Source: Actinomycetes bacterium (GTDB taxonomy: Bacteria; Actinomycetota; Actinomycetes; Actinomycetales; Cellulomonadaceae). From it: a stretch of DNA of 5,374 nt. Shown here one piece after another: positions 1 to 5,374 of the stretch. Under the pieces are notes generated by a model, which saw only the letters and a program-made list of their open reading frames with translations, did not search any database and was not told the origin of the DNA. The stretch lies in NCBI GenBank assembly GCA_023401045.1, contig JAEXEM010000382.1, positions 1 to 5,374 on the forward strand. The letters run 5' to 3'. Each line of letters starts with the position of its first letter. Position 1 is the first letter of the stretch. A program made the position numbers and the translations under genes.

Positions 1-174
1 CTCCGGCAGCGGGCTGACGCTCATCTCCGGGGTCGGCAGCGGCCGCAGGTCGAGCGGGTCGTCGTCGCGTGCCGCGAGCGACATCGGGGAGCCGAGCGCG
101 GCGGCGAGCACGGCGACGACGACGAGCAGCGCGGCCACGGCGGTGGCAGGACCCACCCGGCGGCTCGGCGGCAC
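1..174 (-). CDS. Partial gene: N-terminus of an unrecognised exported or membrane-anchored protein
   Basis: Only the first 58 codons are present; the gene runs off the left edge, so no family can be assigned. From the GTG at 174 the protein begins with a short basic stretch (VPPSRRVGPA). A hydrophobic segment follows at about residues 11-29, rich in Ala, Leu and Val (TAVAALLVVVAVLAAALG). After it comes a polar, acidic and proline-rich stretch (RDDDPLDLRPLPTPE). This is the layout of a Sec signal peptide or a single N-terminal membrane anchor, with the rest outside the cytoplasm. The GTG at 174 is preferred because GAGGAG lies 4 bases upstream (179-184). An in-frame GTG at 186 is the alternative and would add four residues. 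The gene has the same direction as the glycosidase operon but is separated from it by about 130 bases with a possible terminator and its own possible promoter, so it is probably a separate unit. Confidence 0.6.
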   Translation of the reverse strand, partial: MPPSRRVGPATAVAALLVVVAVLAAALGSPMSLAARDDDPLDLRPLPTPEMSVSPLPE

Positions 175-178
175 GACG

Positions 179-184
179 CTCCTC
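179..184 (-). promoter_or_regulatory. Ribosome binding site of the left-edge gene
   Basis: The minus strand reads GAGGAG, followed by a 4-base spacer (CGTC) and GTG at 174. The spacer is on the short side. It overlaps the alternative in-frame GTG at 186, so this site decides for 174 as the start. Confidence 0.45.
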
Positions 185-247
185 ACGACGCTGGGCCCGC
201 CGGCAGCACCGCGCGACGGGGGGCACCGGCACAGCCGGCGTCACCAC

Positions 248-253
248 AGGCTA
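248..253 (-). promoter_or_regulatory. Possible -10 box for the left-edge gene
   Basis: The minus strand reads TAGCCT, which fits the TANNNT -10 pattern common in actinobacteria. Transcription would start near 241, leaving a leader of roughly 65 bases before the GTG at 174. The -35 position (about 271-276) reads CACGCG, a poor match, so this is a weak call from the -10 box and its location alone. Confidence 0.3.
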
Positions 254-272
254 GCGGCCGGGCCCGCCGCCG

Positions 273-294
273 CGTGGGCCTCCCCGGACCCACG
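273..294 (-). terminator. Candidate hairpin terminator after the GH2-DUF2804 gene
   Basis: CGTGGGCC (273-280) can pair with GG plus CCCACG (286-294). The loop is 5 bases and one A (288) is bulged, giving an 8-bp GC-rich stem. It begins 13 bases past the stop codon at 307-309 in the direction of transcription. There is no U-tract after it, which is usual for high-GC actinobacterial terminators but lowers certainty. Confidence 0.4.
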
Positions 295-306
295 GGTGCC
301 GCGACG

Positions 307-1302
307 TCACCACCGGTTGTGGACGTCCTCCGCCCACCCGACGACGTCCGCGACCCGCACCCACGTGCCCGTCTCGTCGCGCACCCGCCCCGACCAGTGC
401 CCGAAGCACTGGTGCGTGCGGGAGGCGAAGACCTTGAGGTCGGTGACGGACTCCTTGAGGTGGAACGGGGTGAGCGTGAGCTCGACGTCGGTGCCGGTGA
501 CGTGCCACGGCGCGAGCCAGTCCTCGGGGTCGTAGTCCCAGACGAGCTCCTCGCTGATCTTGGTGAGCCGCCCGTCGACGAGGAACGAGTTCTCGACCGA
601 GCCCGTGCCGTCGGTCCACCGCCCGCCGACCTGCACCCCGACGACGCGTCCGTCGGTGACGCCCGACCCGGCGCCCCAGTTCCACCGCACGTCGTAGGGC
701 CAGCGGCCGCGCCCGTGGTCGAGGGTCGCCCAGGACTCCCCCGCCGGGACCTCGGACGTCACGCCGTCGACGCGCACCCGGCCGACCGCGGGGCGGGCGA
801 CGTCCTTGACCGTGTACTGGAAGAGCGTGTCGCTCCACGGGACGACGACGCCGAGGCTCTCGTGCCCCTCCGGTCGCTGCGCGAGGACGTCGATGCGCAC
901 CCGCGGCCCGACCGCGCGCAGCCGCGTCCCGCCGGGCACCTCGTCGATCGCGATCTTCACACCACCGGTGCTCGTGCGGACCTTCCCGCGCCCGAGCGTG
1001 CCCGGCAGCCGCACCGACCCGGTGAGCGCGCCGATCGCGTCGTGCGCGACGGTCTGCCCGGTGCGCCGGTCGAGCACCCAGATGCCGTGGACGGCGGCGT
1101 AGTCGATCGCGGAGGTGACGAGCGCGATCACGTGCGTCGGCGTCGTCACCGCCCAGTACTCCCACCGCTTGTTGCGGCCCCGGCCGCGCAGCCCGTGGCC
1201 GATGCCGTCGGTCTCGACCAGCGGGGTCCGGGTCCACCCGACGGCGTCGGGGTTGAGCCGGCCGTCGGGCAGGGTGAGGCTGACCGGTGCGGTGATCTCG
1301 CG
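307..1302 (-). other. DUF2804 domain (residues 605-935 of the GH2 fusion protein)
   Basis: The segment opens with REITAPVSL and GRLNPDAVGWTRTPL, followed by the basic/aromatic NKRWEYW. This is the start I remember for free-standing DUF2804 proteins (PF10974). Other conserved-looking blocks are GRGRWPYDVRWNWGAGSG (801-818), GGRWTDGTGSVENSFLVDG (830-848), DYDPEDWLAPWH (860-871) and HWSGRV (906-911). The segment is about 331 residues, the usual size of the whole family, so the domain is complete. It is tryptophan-rich and predicted to be mainly beta-strand. I know of no biochemical function for the family. A GTG at 1311 (V602) could in principle start a separate protein, but no Shine-Dalgarno sequence precedes it and the frame is open through the join, so a true fusion is favoured. 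The linker is about residues 586-604 (Arg/Ala-rich). Family assignment is from memory of motifs. Confidence 0.8.
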
Positions 1303-3114
1303 CTCCTGCACGGCGATCGCGCGGCGGGGCCGCACGCCGGTGGCCGCGTCGTGGCGGGCGCGCAGCCGCTCGTTGGACGTGCGGACGGCGTCGGCGTCGA
1401 CCTTGAGGACGCGCCGGTCGTACGTGAGCAGCCCGTTCGTCTCCTCCTCGACGTCCGCGAGCTGGGTGTACACGAACGCCGCGAGCGCGTCGTCGACGGC
1501 CGGGCCGACCTGCGCGTGCTGCAGCCGCAGGAAGGCGCGCTCGAACGTGTCCCGGTCGCGGAACCGCCGGTACCCGAACTCCTTGTCCGACCACGTGTGC
1601 CCCGGGACGCGGTACGAGTACCCGCCGTACTCGGAGAGCACCGCGGCGCGCGGGTCGGCCGCGTCGGCGCGCGAGAGCCGGTAGGGCCGGAAGTAGACGT
1701 GCCGGGAGACGACGTCCCCCGCGCCCTGGTCGTGCCAGCCGGAGGCGTGGTCGACGGGGCGCGTCGGGTCGAGCGCCGCGACGCGTGCGGCGACCGCCGC
1801 GGCGTCGAACTGCCCCCAGCCCTCGTTGAACGGCACCCACAGCGCGACGGACGGCACGCTGCGCAGCAGCTCGACGGTCGCGTCGAGCTCGGCGAGGAAC
1901 TCGTCCCGCCCCCCGGCGTCCTGCCTGCCGAACACGGAGTACCGGGAGTCGTCGAGCCGCAGCGGGGTGAGCACGGGCGCCGTGACGACGGCCGGGTGGT
2001 AGGACCGGCCGCCGTTGACCATGTCCTGCCAGACGAGCATCCCGAGCCGGTCGCAGTGGTGGTACCAGCGCAGCGGCTCGACCTTGATGTGCTTGCGCAG
2101 CATCGTGAACCCGAGGTCCTTGGCGGTGCGGATGTCGTGGACCATCGCCTCGTCCGAAGGCGGGGTGTACAGCCCGTCGGGCCAGTAGCCCTGGTCGAGC
2201 AGCCCGGCGTGCAGGTACGGCTCGCCGTTGAGCAGCAGGCGGGTGCGGCCGTGCGCGTCGGGGCCGACACCGAACGAGCGCATGCCGACGTAGCTCGTCA
2301 CGCGGTCGTCGCCGAACGTCACCTCGACGTCGTGGAGGAACGGGTCCTCGGGGGACCACGTGCGCGCGTCGGGGCCGAGGGGCAGGCGCGTGGGGACGCC
2401 CGGGCGCACCGCGGCGCCCGCGAGCTCGCGCCCGTCGGCGCGGACGACGACCTGCGCGGTGGCCTCGGCCGGGACGTCACCGCCGGGCACGACCGTGACC
2501 TCGACCTCACCGGTCGCCAGGTCCGGGACGAGGACGAGCCGGTCGACCCAGCGCGCCGGCACGGACTCGAGCCACACCGTCTGCCAGATGCCCGACTGCG
2601 GGGTGTACCAGATGCCGCCGGGCTCGAGCCTCTGCTTGCCGCGGCTGCGGTACGAGGTGTCGGTGACGTCGCGGACCCGCACGACGACCTCGTGCTCCTC
2701 GCCGTCCGCGAGCGCGTCGGTGACGTCGAGCGTGAACGGCAGGTACCCACCGCGGTGCCCGCCGACGTCGGTGCCGTCGACCCACACCTGCGCGTCCTGG
2801 TCGACGGCACCGAGGTGGAGCAGGACGCGGTCGCGGACGAACCCGGCGGGCAGCGTGAACGTCCGCCGGTACCACAGCGCCTCGTCGGGCTGCAGCGTGC
2901 GCCCGACGCCGGACAGCGGCGCCTCGGGCGAGAACGGCACGAGGATCGGCCCGTCCCACACCTGCGGGACCTGCTCGTCGGTCGCGTGGGTGAACGCGTG
3001 GTCCCAGCGGCCGTTGAGGTTGAGCCACGAGTCGCGCACGAGCTGCGGGCGCGGGTGCTCCGGCAGCGGGGCGTCGGGGTCGAGGGCGTCGCCCCACGGG
3101 GTCGTCATCGTCAT
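307..3114 (-). CDS. Glycoside hydrolase family 2 enzyme fused to a DUF2804 domain, cytoplasmic
   Basis: 935 residues. Residues about 22-185 form the GH2 N-terminal sugar-binding (jelly-roll) domain (PRPQLVRDSWLNLNGRWD; WYRRTFTLP; GGIWYTPQSGIWQTVWLE). Residues about 187-282 are the Ig-like domain, and about 284-585 the TIM barrel. The expected catalytic glutamates are present: acid/base E431 in FNEGWGQFD and nucleophile E495 in LSEYGGYS. The arginine region reads LRKHIKVEP (339-347) instead of the textbook RxxHYP, as I recall for a subgroup of GH2 proteins of about 600 residues. Residues 605-935 match DUF2804. There is no signal peptide, so it acts in the cytoplasm, probably on a sugar brought in by the overlapping permease gene. 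The ATG at 3114 is set by GGAGGT six bases upstream, and it overlaps the permease stop as ATGA. The substrate is unknown: beta-galactoside, beta-glucuronide or another glycoside are all possible from family membership. Confidence 0.93.
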   Translation of the reverse strand: MTMTTPWGDALDPDAPLPEHPRPQLVRDSWLNLNGRWDHAFTHATDEQVPQVWDGPILVPFSPEAPLSGVGRTLQPDEALWYRRTFTLPAGFVRDRVLLHLGAVDQDAQVWVDGTDVGGHRGGYLPFTLDVTDALADGEEHEVVVRVRDVTDTSYRSRGKQRLEPGGIWYTPQSGIWQTVWLESVPARWVDRLVLVPDLATGEVEVTVVPGGDVPAEATAQVVVRADGRELAGAAVRPGVPTRLPLGPDARTWSPEDPFLHDVEVTFGDDRVTSYVGMRSFGVGPDAHGRTRLLLNGEPYLHAGLLDQGYWPDGLYTPPSDEAMVHDIRTAKDLGFTMLRKHIKVEPLRWYHHCDRLGMLVWQDMVNGGRSYHPAVVTAPVLTPLRLDDSRYSVFGRQDAGGRDEFLAELDATVELLRSVPSVALWVPFNEGWGQFDAAAVAARVAALDPTRPVDHASGWHDQGAGDVVSRHVYFRPYRLSRADAADPRAAVLSEYGGYSYRVPGHTWSDKEFGYRRFRDRDTFERAFLRLQHAQVGPAVDDALAAFVYTQLADVEEETNGLLTYDRRVLKVDADAVRTSNERLRARHDAATGVRPRRAIAVQEREITAPVSLTLPDGRLNPDAVGWTRTPLVETDGIGHGLRGRGRNKRWEYWAVTTPTHVIALVTSAIDYAAVHGIWVLDRRTGQTVAHDAIGALTGSVRLPGTLGRGKVRTSTGGVKIAIDEVPGGTRLRAVGPRVRIDVLAQRPEGHESLGVVVPWSDTLFQYTVKDVARPAVGRVRVDGVTSEVPAGESWATLDHGRGRWPYDVRWNWGAGSGVTDGRVVGVQVGGRWTDGTGSVENSFLVDGRLTKISEELVWDYDPEDWLAPWHVTGTDVELTLTPFHLKESVTDLKVFASRTHQCFGHWSGRVRDETGTWVRVADVVGWAEDVHNRW

Positions 3115-4424
3115 CGCGGCACCTCCACGGGCGCGTCGGCGGGGGCGGTGGTCGTCGCGTGACGGCGCAGCCGCAGCGCGGGCAGCACGACGGGCAGGAC
3201 GACGAGCGCCGCCGCGACGAACACCCACGGCGTCGGCACCTGCTTGACGACACCGAGGTCGACGTACGTCTCGTCGGCGCCGAGGATGACCGCCGCACCG
3301 ACGAACGGGCCGACGACCATGGGCACGAGCACCGCGAACACCATCCGCAGCCCCTGCACCTGCCCGGCACGCTCCGGCGGGGTGAGGTTGCGGACGGTCG
3401 CGGAGATCGCCGCGACGCCGAGCATGAAGCCCGACATGAGGACGATGCCGGCGCCGATGACGGCGAGCATGCCGCGCGCGGGGAACATGAGCAGCAGACC
3501 CACGACGTAGACGGCCACGACGGGGACGATCGCCCGCGCCGGCCCGACCCGGTCGAGCAGGCGCCCGCCGAGCACGCTGACGACCGCGGCACCGAGCAGC
3601 ACCGACGCGAGGACGATCGGGTACCCGTCGATCTGCAGGTACCGCTGCACGTAGATGATGAGGTACGGCATGAACACCTGGGTGCTCGTGCCGAGCACCG
3701 CCCAGGCGCACAGTGCGAGGTAGAGCGCGGGGTTCGCGCGCACCGTCGAGGGGCGCAGCCCGTGGACGACCGACGCGAGGTACGTGCCGCCGGTGCGCGG
3801 GCGGGGCTCCTCGCGCAGCCCGAACCACGCGGCGACGCCGACGAGCATCGTCACGACCCCGACGACGAGGAAGAACGTCGACCAGTCCCCCGCCTGGGTG
3901 AGCGGGTCGAGCGCACCGAAGACGACGAGCATCGCCAGCAGCGGGAACGTCGCGATGACCGAGTCGACGCGGCCGCGGTTCGACGTGTCCGTGGAGTCGG
4001 TGACCCACGCGTTGAACGCCGCGTCGTTGGCCGTCGCCCCGAGTGCGCTCATCACGCAGTCGAGCAGGACGATCGCGACGACCGCCACGGCCACCGCGTC
4101 GGCCGCCGGGGCGAGCGCCGCTGCGGTCTCGACGTCGACGAGCCCGAACGCCGCCGTGCACGCGCCCCACAGCAGGTACCCGACGGCGAGGAACGGCCGC
4201 CGCCGGCCCGTGCGGTCCGACCACGCCCCCGCGAGGAGCGTCGCGACGGTCGCCGCCACCGCGCTGGCGGCGACGAGGGTGGCCAGCACCGTCGGGGAGT
4301 CCGTGATCGTGTCGTGCACGAAGACGTTGAGGTACATGTTCTCGACCGTCCAGGCGAGCTGCCCGGTGAGTCCCAGGAGGACCACCCACAGCCACAGCCG
4401 ACGGCCCGTTCGGCTCCGTTGCAC
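3111..4424 (-). CDS. Major facilitator superfamily (MFS) permease, probable sugar/glycoside transporter
   Basis: 437 residues with about 12 hydrophobic segments, near 11-36, 43-66, 78-97, 108-130, 155-175, 182-203, 230-257, 266-290, 298-314, 317-340, 356-381 and 399-418. The MFS motif A loop between TM2 and TM3 is clear (GAWSDRTGRRRP, 66-77). A second-half copy lies between TM8 and TM9 (GGRLLDRVGPAR, 286-297). The charged or polar sequence WTVENMYLNVF in TM1 resembles SLC45/sugar-cation symporter-like MFS proteins, but the substrate cannot be read from sequence. It would sit in the inner membrane and import the substrate of the glycosidase, whose ATG overlaps its TGA stop. The GTG at 4424 is chosen because it precedes all of TM1; the next in-frame ATG (residue 30) would delete TM1. 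No Shine-Dalgarno sequence precedes the GTG, but a -10-like box six bases away suggests leaderless translation. Confidence 0.92.
   Translation of the reverse strand: MQRSRTGRRLWLWVVLLGLTGQLAWTVENMYLNVFVHDTITDSPTVLATLVAASAVAATVATLLAGAWSDRTGRRRPFLAVGYLLWGACTAAFGLVDVETAAALAPAADAVAVAVVAIVLLDCVMSALGATANDAAFNAWVTDSTDTSNRGRVDSVIATFPLLAMLVVFGALDPLTQAGDWSTFFLVVGVVTMLVGVAAWFGLREEPRPRTGGTYLASVVHGLRPSTVRANPALYLALCAWAVLGTSTQVFMPYLIIYVQRYLQIDGYPIVLASVLLGAAVVSVLGGRLLDRVGPARAIVPVVAVYVVGLLLMFPARGMLAVIGAGIVLMSGFMLGVAAISATVRNLTPPERAGQVQGLRMVFAVLVPMVVGPFVGAAVILGADETYVDLGVVKQVPTPWVFVAAALVVLPVVLPALRLRRHATTTAPADAPVEVPR
3121..3126 (-). promoter_or_regulatory. Strong ribosome binding site of the GH2-DUF2804 gene, inside the permease gene
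   Basis: The minus strand reads GGAGGT, followed by six bases and the ATG at 3114. It lies within the last codons of the permease gene and fixes the start of the glycosidase. Together with the ATGA overlap it indicates coupled translation, with its own strong re-initiation signal. Confidence 0.8.
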
Positions 4425-4430
4425 GGCGTG

Positions 4431-4436
4431 ACTGTA
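4431..4436 (-). promoter_or_regulatory. -10 box of the permease/glycosidase operon, positioned for a leaderless mRNA
   Basis: The minus strand reads TACAGT, then six bases, then the GTG at 4424. A -10 box at this distance would place the transcription start at or next to the first base of the start codon. There is no Shine-Dalgarno sequence in this gap. The -35 region is not a good match to TTGACA (GGGGAC at 17-bp spacing), so an activator or an alternative sigma factor may be needed. Confidence 0.45.
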
Positions 4437-4441
4437 GCCAC

Positions 4442-4456
4442 GACGAGGTCCTCGTC
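4442..4456. promoter_or_regulatory. Perfect 7-bp inverted repeat, candidate operator
   Basis: GACGAGG (4442-4448), one T, then CCTCGTC (4450-4456) form a perfect inverted repeat with a single-base centre. It lies 5 bases upstream of the TACAGT box of the permease operon, that is between its -10 and -35 positions, where a bound repressor would block RNA polymerase. No regulator gene is visible in the window. In DNA this GC-rich such palindromes also occur by chance. Confidence 0.4.
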
Positions 4457-4501
4457 CCCCGACCCGCCGGTCGCGCCGGGCCCGGTTGTCCGGTATTTCC
4501 C

Positions 4502-4526
4502 GGTGCGGCCCGGCCCCCCGGGCACC
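4502..4526. repeat. GC-rich hairpin in the divergent intergenic region
   Basis: GCCCGG (4508-4513) and CCGGGC (4518-4523) are perfectly complementary around a CCCC loop. An alternative, longer fold pairs GGTG (4502-4505) with CACC (4523-4526) outside CCCGG/CCGGG. It lies between the permease and SDR starts. It could form in the 5' leader of the SDR transcript or mark a regulatory site; no specific role can be shown. Confidence 0.3.
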
Positions 4527-4613
4527 GCCCGCGTGATCAACCCCCAGGAGGATCCGCCGTGGACCGTCGGATACGTACGTTCGTGACGAGCTTCCCGAGA
4601 ACCGTCCTCGACC

Positions 4614-4619
4614 GGAAGG
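4614..4619 (+). promoter_or_regulatory. Ribosome binding site of the SDR gene
   Basis: GGAAGG lies six bases before the ATG at 4626, a good position. It fixes the start just ahead of the Rossmann fold, as expected for this family. No convincing -10/-35 pair is visible upstream; TACGTT at 4576-4581 is the nearest TANNNT-type box. Confidence 0.6.
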
Positions 4620-4625
4620 CACACC

Positions 4626-5374
4626 ATGCAGATCACCGGCTCCACGGCACTCGTCACCGGCGCCAACCGCGGCCTCGGCGCACAGTTCGCGCGGCAGCTC
4701 CTCGAGCGCGGCGCGCGGCGCGTCTACGCGACGGCGCGCCGGCCGGAGTCCGTCACGCTCCCGGGGGTGGAGGTGCTCGGGCTCGACGTCACCGACGCCG
4801 AGCAGGTCGCAGCCGCCGCCCGCGCCGCCGACGACGTCGACCTCGTCGTCAACAACGCCGGGGTGAACTCCGGCGCCACGCTCGTCACCGGCGACCTCGC
4901 GGACATCCGGAACGACATGGCGGTCAACCTGTTCGGCCCGCTGCTCATGGCTCGGGCCTTCGCGCCGGTGCTCGCGGCGAACGGCGGCGGCGCGATCCTC
5001 AACGTGCTCTCCGGCGCGAGCTGGTTCGTCGCCCCCGGCGCCACGTCCTACGGGGTCTCGAAGGCCGCGGCGTGGGGCCTCAACGACGGCCTGCGGGTCG
5101 AGCTGGCCGGGCAGGGCACCCAGGTGACGAGCGTGCTCATGGGCGTCGTCGACACCGACATGGCCGCCGGGCACCCCGGGAGAAGGCGAGCCCGCGCGAC
5201 GTCGTCGACCGGGCGCTCGACGGTCTCGAGGCCGGTGCGAGCGAGGTGCTCGGCGACGACCTCGTCGGAGCGGCGAAGGCGTCCCTCGTGATGGACCCGG
5301 CCGAGCGCTACGCGAAGTTCCTCGGCGTGTGCCCCACGGCCCGGCCCCCGCGCCCGGCCCGCCCCCCGCCCCCC
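4626..5374 (+). pseudogene. Short-chain dehydrogenase/reductase (SDR), frameshifted near its 3' end
   Basis: A classical SDR, an NAD(P)-dependent oxidoreductase acting in the cytoplasm; the substrate is unknown. The Rossmann motif TGANRGLG is at residues 11-18, and R38 R39 after the second strand suggest NADP(H). D54 (LDVTD) and NNAG (76-79) follow. The catalytic set is complete: N101, S129, Y142 and K146 (YGVSK). After DTDMAAGHPG the reading frame turns into an Arg/Ser-rich tail and stops at 5289-5291 (221 residues). From 5180 in another frame a proper family C-terminus appears: EKASPRDVVDRALDGLEAGA, then SEVLGDDLVG, ending near DPAERYAKFLG (5326). Restoring one base in the CCCCGGG run at 5174-5180 would give about 234 residues, the usual length. 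No stop is seen in the restored frame before the edge. It is either a real 3' mutation or a sequencing error; catalytic residues are untouched. It is divergent from the permease operon. Confidence 0.8.
5337..5374. other. Pure G/C low-complexity edge, possible contig-end artefact
   Basis: After the A at 5336 the last 38 bases contain only G and C, with long C runs. If read in the restored SDR frame it encodes a Pro/Arg/Ala string past the expected end of the family, with no stop codon. The pattern fits poor sequence at the end of a contig better than a gene. Confidence 0.5.

Follow-up and report, generated by a model that had tools for sequence, protein, structure and literature searches.

What does a DUF2804 domain do at the end of a glycosidase? 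The question is raised by a gene on contig JAEXEM010000382.1, positions 1 to 5,374 of which (the window) come from an Actinomycetes bacterium of the Cellulomonadaceae, and in which a glycoside hydrolase of family 2 (GH2) and a DUF2804 domain share one reading frame. We tentatively favour, at somewhat under an even chance, the reading that the GH2 part, likely a furanosidase, and a DUF2804 part with a predicted CrtC/AttH-like fold would act successively on a single imported glycoside.

A recurrent fusion of GH2 and DUF2804

A preliminary description, made from the sequence alone, had proposed an in-frame fusion without stating its strand. The gene proved to lie on the minus strand and the frame of 935 amino acids was confirmed, with the following parts.

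307..3114, minus strand: GH2-DUF2804 fusion gene of 935 codons, opening with ATG and closed by the stop codon at 307-309, from the open frame and its translation
1360..3114, minus strand: GH2 glycosidase part, residues 1-585
1822..1824, minus strand: E431, GH2 acid/base glutamate (NE motif); codon read, role taken from the GH2 family
1630..1632, minus strand: E495, GH2 nucleophile glutamate; codon read, role taken from the GH2 family
1306..1359, minus strand: GH2/DUF2804 junction, residues 586-603, the site at which a GH2 stop and a DUF2804 start share four nucleotides in some relatives
310..1305, minus strand: DUF2804 domain (PF10974), residues 604-935, by Pfam match, with a predicted all-beta fold of CrtC/AttH type
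718..720, minus strand: D799, candidate general acid, matched in profile alignment to an Asp that is invariant among CrtC/AttH proteins
676..684, minus strand: W811 and W813 (WxW pair), aligned with the WxW of CrtC/AttH proteins

The PF10974 run proposed as a check on a full-length DUF2804 domain at residues 605-935 gave a match at residues 604-935 over the entire profile (positions 1-339 of 339; E 4.6e-96, 322.4 bits against a cut-off of 26.9). The claim of three GH2 domains held in part: the N-terminal sugar-binding domain (PF02837, residues 77-186; E 3e-14, 53.7 bits against 28) and the TIM barrel (PF02836, residues 322-478; E 2.4e-6, 27.3 bits against 21) pass their Pfam cut-offs, whereas the middle domain (PF00703) falls below its own (20.8 against 23 bits). 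Both proposed catalytic glutamates, E431 in NEGWGQ and E495 in LSEYGG, are glutamate in all 97 aligned fused proteins, the window's included, and R647, K770, D799, W811, W813, E841 and N842 are equally invariant there. No signal sequence was seen by eye at the N-terminus (MTMTTPWGDALDPD...) and the protein is therefore probably cytosolic. Among plasmid records, none carried a match covering at least 80% of the fusion.

Other proteins with both domains, which the preliminary description had recommended looking for, are numerous. A search with the DUF2804 region yielded 107 proteins, including P0004, which differs from the window protein at just 2 of 935 residues, and 96 of the other 106 match the GH2 domain, 92 of these being at least 900 amino acids long. 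The junction lies mostly near residue 600 and the source names include Cellulomonas, Beutenbergia, Tessaracoccus, Rhodococcus, Nocardioides, Mumia, Microbacterium and Propionicimonas. Split genes in relatives had been named as a sign of a sequencing error or lost stop, and relatives do carry split genes, with four-nucleotide overlaps that loss of a stop could join; nevertheless, because fused proteins turn up across many genera and contigs, from several sources and with a similarly placed junction, a lost stop of one assembly is ruled out and an origin of the fusion by chance or misassembly is extremely improbable.

The ten proteins without a GH2 match comprise six esterase fusions, considered below, together with P0099, P0108, P0109 and P0110. 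P0109 (1043 amino acids) combines DUF2804 with threonyl-tRNA synthetase domains, is probably a product of readthrough or misassembly, and was set aside; P0110, which looks frame-shifted, and the odd P0108 and P0168 were dropped from the later alignment. P0193 (484 amino acids) carries a weak match, under the cut-off, to the major facilitator superfamily (MFS) of transporters, followed by DUF2804 lacking the first 34 profile positions, and is perhaps a joined MFS-DUF2804 pair.

For the GH2 half, the structural model aligns with its top match, the GH2 structure 7SF2, over residues 1-594, and the closest solved structures are 7SF2 and the beta-D-galactofuranosidase 9J6N/9J6M; the latter and 7XYR rank above other GH2 structures. 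The nearest solved relatives thus include members of GH2 group III, the GH2_18/GH2_19 furanosidases, in which 9J6N/9J6M and 7XYR are placed by PMC12243196; 7SF2 is absent from the main text of that paper. E431 aligns with ORF1110 of 9J6N. T550, a threonine in 96 of the 97 fused proteins, aligns with a threonine in 9J6N and may correspond to the residue that in group III replaces the -1 subsite tryptophan (PMC12243196). Judged by its nearest solved relatives the GH2 half is likely to be a furanosidase, a relationship that the preliminary description had not noted.

Gene neighbourhoods and the strictness of the link

The fusion had been read as a "Rosetta stone" link between the two domains, and co-occurrence supports this. 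Counts for both domains are assumed, from equal numbers and handles, to concern the same 296 Actinomycete genomes, with at most four GH2 candidates scored per genome. DUF2804 is present in 36 of them and the close GH2 subgroup (over 900 bits) in six, five of which also carry DUF2804 (hypergeometric p 1.1e-4, or 7.7e-4 without the fused genome). As a control, DUF2804 occurs in three of 35 genomes having only distant GH2 relatives (370-441 bits; p 0.83). In the five co-occurring genomes the domains are fused (G001, a Cellulomonas metagenome-assembled genome), encoded by genes overlapping by four nucleotides (G096, G064), 0.5 kb apart (G222) or on separate contigs (G051, where GH2 reaches the contig end); the sixth genome with a close GH2, G005, has no DUF2804.

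Viewed from the DUF2804 side the association is looser. Among 117 DUF2804 loci, read over 8 or 6 kb per side and less at contig ends, nine are fused, 14 have GH2 within 5 kb, 87 have no GH2 in the stretch read, in line with the expectation that DUF2804 is normally free-standing, and in seven no DUF2804 gene was called, owing to a simple gene caller or the BLAST cut-off. The 14 near loci comprise four with a four-nucleotide overlap, two at 0.4-0.5 kb and eight at 2.0-4.9 kb. Six of the 117 (L150-L155) come from genomes chosen for GH2, L153 and L154 being among the 14. The Actinomycete context covers 34 places in 32 of the 36 genomes (G213, G038 and G108 were left out; G001 is L001), additional loci were limited to places of about 270 bits or more, and alignment A7 leaves out L167, L170 and L164, the last of which has a stop codon within its stretch. 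The association is therefore stronger from this GH2 to DUF2804 than in the opposite direction, since five of six genomes with the close GH2 have DUF2804 and most DUF2804 loci lack GH2. DUF2804 was found in nine of 148 Clostridial genomes, and no recurring neighbour was evident by eye in nine Clostridial stretches (eight plus L150); in L275 a distant GH2-like gene (68 bits) lies about 1.4 kb from DUF2804, and the neighbour script did not pick up the DUF2804 gene of G008 (L151).

Directly upstream of the fusion gene is a transporter gene.

3111..4424, minus strand: MFS transporter gene (Pfam MFS_1, E 1.9e-38), its own start being guessed
3121..3126, minus strand: Shine-Dalgarno-like GGAGGT within the MFS gene, six nucleotides before the fusion ATG, read from the sequence

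The fusion ATG shares four nucleotides with the MFS stop (ATGA, 3111-3114) and, given this overlap and the GGAGGT six bases before the ATG, translation of the two genes looks coupled. A search of the Protein Data Bank (PDB) with the MFS protein returned no match at E 0.001. The MFS and fusion pair also occurs in relatives, and the adjacent separate genes that the preliminary description had suggested seeking were found with four-nucleotide overlaps and in other close arrangements. L238 and L246, whose genomes belong to the family of G001, carry MFS, GH2 and DUF2804 in that order with a four-nucleotide overlap at both joins (starts from the gene caller). L125 and L126 show the order MFS, GH13, GH36, GH2, DUF2804, with a four-nucleotide GH2/DUF2804 overlap and a divergent TetR gene; Pfam was run on the L125 genes, with which those of L126 cluster. 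L195 (3856-8336) has the order MFS, DUF2804, a 73-amino-acid frame and GH2, its DUF2804 being 28% identical to that of the window; the GH2 frame there seems to lack its N-terminus, before which the 73-amino-acid frame stands. A TetR-DUF2804 pair diverges from MFS-GH2 in L154, and in L139 MFS-GH2 and DUF2804 are convergent, separated by 0.5 kb containing a 117-amino-acid frame. Because several Clostridia (L010, L011, L032 and L042 among others) carry MFS directly upstream of GH2 without DUF2804, MFS-GH2 is probably the older unit, to which DUF2804 was added later.

The history of the fusion appears complex. In a GH2 tree of 62 rows, 29 of the 33 fused rows fall in one starred group, a second starred group combines P0087, P0088 and P0104 with two unfused loci, L238 and L246, and P0094 is loosely placed. 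A single fused clade was rejected (138 log units worse, p-AU 2e-51 in the approximately unbiased test, on a quick tree with no bootstrap), and the fusion thus arose or split more than once; both repeated fusion and fusion followed by splitting fit. Fused and single rows are intermixed in a DUF2804 tree of 91 rows, where many of the single rows stand for database proteins taken without their gene neighbourhoods.

A second kind of partner, also unnoticed before, occurs in the six esterase fusions (P0095, P0096, P0097, P0100, P0102 and P0106; two of the six were rescanned), with an N-terminal Abhydrolase_3 lipase-type esterase and a C-terminal DUF2804. They form one clade in the DUF2804 tree, and the P0106 esterase resembles hormone-sensitive-lipase-type esterases, at scores under the NCBIfam cut-offs. 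No single match over both halves of an esterase-DUF2804 fusion was obtained in 199 genomes, with at most six candidates scored in each.

Elsewhere in these neighbourhoods, the fused gene of L194, L199 and L201 adjoins a divergent gene of about 1173-1182 amino acids that is dnaE-like by eye. At 4626-5374 on the plus strand the window holds a short-chain dehydrogenase gene, PRK08264-like, whose best family match ends near residue 187 and whose apparent C-terminal end continues, by eye, in another frame; the gene looks frame-shifted near 5175-5190, or there is an assembly error there. A frame with a hydrophobic N-terminus runs off the window at 1-174 on the minus strand, and the fusion is followed in L228 and L242 by a gene for about 255 amino acids, again with a hydrophobic N-terminus.

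A predicted fold and the possible roles of DUF2804

The listing of a structure search with the whole fusion was taken up by GH2 matches, and DUF2804 (residues 605-935) was therefore modelled separately. The model (predicted local distance difference test score 94.9) has an all-beta fold of CrtC/AttH type, and the match of this predicted structure to the CrtC/AttH structural superfamily spans most of the domain, the best by Z being 2ICH, titled putative AttH. In hhalign comparisons D799 and W811/W813 align with the Asp and WxW of CrtC/AttH proteins. Beyond the fused proteins, D799 is kept in 254 of 255 rows of another set (241 distinct sequences, with the window's own domain present twice), and the residues of the Asp/WxW motif in 253-255 of the 255.

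On the favoured reading, the MFS protein would import a small glycoside, whose beta-D-galactofuranosyl or alpha-L-arabinofuranosyl bond would be cleaved by E431 and E495 through the retaining mechanism of the GH2 family. The freed aglycone might then be altered by DUF2804, D799 protonating a double bond or leaving group so that hydration or elimination follows, and W811 and W813 stabilising the cation, as was proposed from mutants for D268, W283 and W285 of RgCrtC. The order of steps and the shared substrate are suggested by the fusion, the operon linkage and the esterase swap; since a lipase-type esterase can replace GH2 as fusion partner, the substrate of DUF2804 would be the unmasked core. 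That DUF2804 transforms the aglycone had been one of several possibilities raised earlier, and the predicted fold and candidate catalytic residues now stand behind it. More specifically, DUF2804 could be an unrecognised branch of cofactor-free hydratases and lyases, kin to CrtC and kievitone hydratase; the fusion would remove a furanosyl cap and then hydrate or eliminate on the core, the cap deciding whether the hydrolase half is a furanosidase or an esterase. This fuller version we regard as possible but doubtful.

Several observations weigh against the favoured reading. Apart from the 87 loci without GH2, L131 (7974-8999) in genome G211 is a lone DUF2804 that is 78% identical to the fused domain, and G211 is not among the genomes with a GH2 match in the co-occurrence survey. 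Three of the nine fused genes (L194, L199, L201) have no MFS match alongside. Identity between DUF2804 and its structural matches is just 7-13%, and a first hhalign run with a four-row CrtC alignment was weak (probability 7.7%), while a run using a different DUF2804 alignment reached 69.8%. The Pfam CrtC family (PF07143) gave no match for the window protein up to E 1, and the protein is therefore not filed in that family; the DUF2804 profile against PDB sequences gave only matches at E 0.015 and 2, neither to a CrtC fold. Finally, hydratase chemistry does not follow from the fold, because pericyclases also have it.

DUF2804 might instead be a binding module and not an enzyme. Lipocalin-type barrels frequently bind hydrophobic ligands, and a lipocalin-like pocket could hold an aglycone, lipid or sugar and so deliver the glycoside to GH2. 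In addition, 2ICH, which has the highest Z, is titled only a putative AttH, and GH2 enzymes can bear extra domains, such as the AbfB domain of ORF1110 (PMC4560423). We consider this rather unlikely, however, given that many polar residues (R647, K770, D799, E841, N842) are conserved, each in 252-255 of those 255 rows, which suits catalysis, and that a mostly free-standing domain would be an odd accessory module for GH2.

Alternatively, DUF2804 might act on the sugar side, altering the released furanose or the intact glycoside and not the aglycone. The partners in L125 and L126 (GH13, GH36 and a sugar-type MFS transporter) provide a fitting sugar-catabolism setting, but the substrates of the named CrtC/AttH-fold enzymes are prenylated flavonoids, polyketide-type chains or steroids, and an esterase can take the place of GH2; we therefore judge a sugar-side role unlikely.

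Less probable still, and in our view distinctly improbable, is a glycerolipid link in which GH2 would cleave a glycosylglycerol or glycolipid remnant and DUF2804 handle the lipid or glycerol part. The resemblance of the alternative fusion partner to hormone-sensitive-lipase-type esterases accords with it, as does PA3342 of Pseudomonas aeruginosa, by annotation a free-standing DUF2804 within a glycerolipid regulon, which is up 15-fold with overproduced GliR alongside a phospholipase and a lipid kinase (PMC8151288). In an E. coli reporter test, however, GliR raised activity of the PA3342 promoter only a little (PMC8151288), and a DUF2804 on a P. aeruginosa plasmid, 28% identical to that of the window and not shown to be PA3342, adjoins a fumarate hydratase gene and not lipid genes. 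The PA3342/GliR hint is too distant to carry much weight.

Comparison with known systems

In the literature searched DUF2804 is mentioned in one paper and PF10974 in none; as far as our searches show, the GH2-DUF2804 architecture is recorded in databases, mostly as "DUF2804 family protein", and is not described in that literature. To our knowledge, the combination of a glycosidase and a hydratase-like domain in one chain is new. Hydration of plain double bonds without a cofactor is a reaction in demand in biocatalysis (PMC12402844). The predicted fold, the three candidate catalytic residues, the partner linked both by fusion and by operon, and the nearest characterised furanosidase make DUF2804 a testable enzyme.

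The superfamily with which DUF2804 is to be compared includes AttH, kievitone hydratase, fungal pericyclases, 25-phosphosteroid lyase and the CrtC carotenoid hydratases; in DUF2804, which has no known activity, the residues around the motif differ (LDHGRGxWP). The nearest characterised furanosidase to the window GH2 is ORF1110 of Streptomyces sp. JHA19, a GH2_18 beta-D-galactofuranosidase (9J6M, 9J6N). ORF1110 possesses both a signal peptide and an AbfB domain (PMC4560423). The window protein, by contrast, gave no AbfB match in Pfam, shows no signal sequence by eye and bears DUF2804. Free-standing DUF2804 proteins possess the same full-length domain with no GH2 attached; identity reaches 83% within the top 120 of the listing, where named entries are mostly from Nocardioides. 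The esterase-DUF2804 proteins share with the window fusion an N-terminal hydrolase and a C-terminal DUF2804, the hydrolase being an Abhydrolase_3 esterase in place of GH2.
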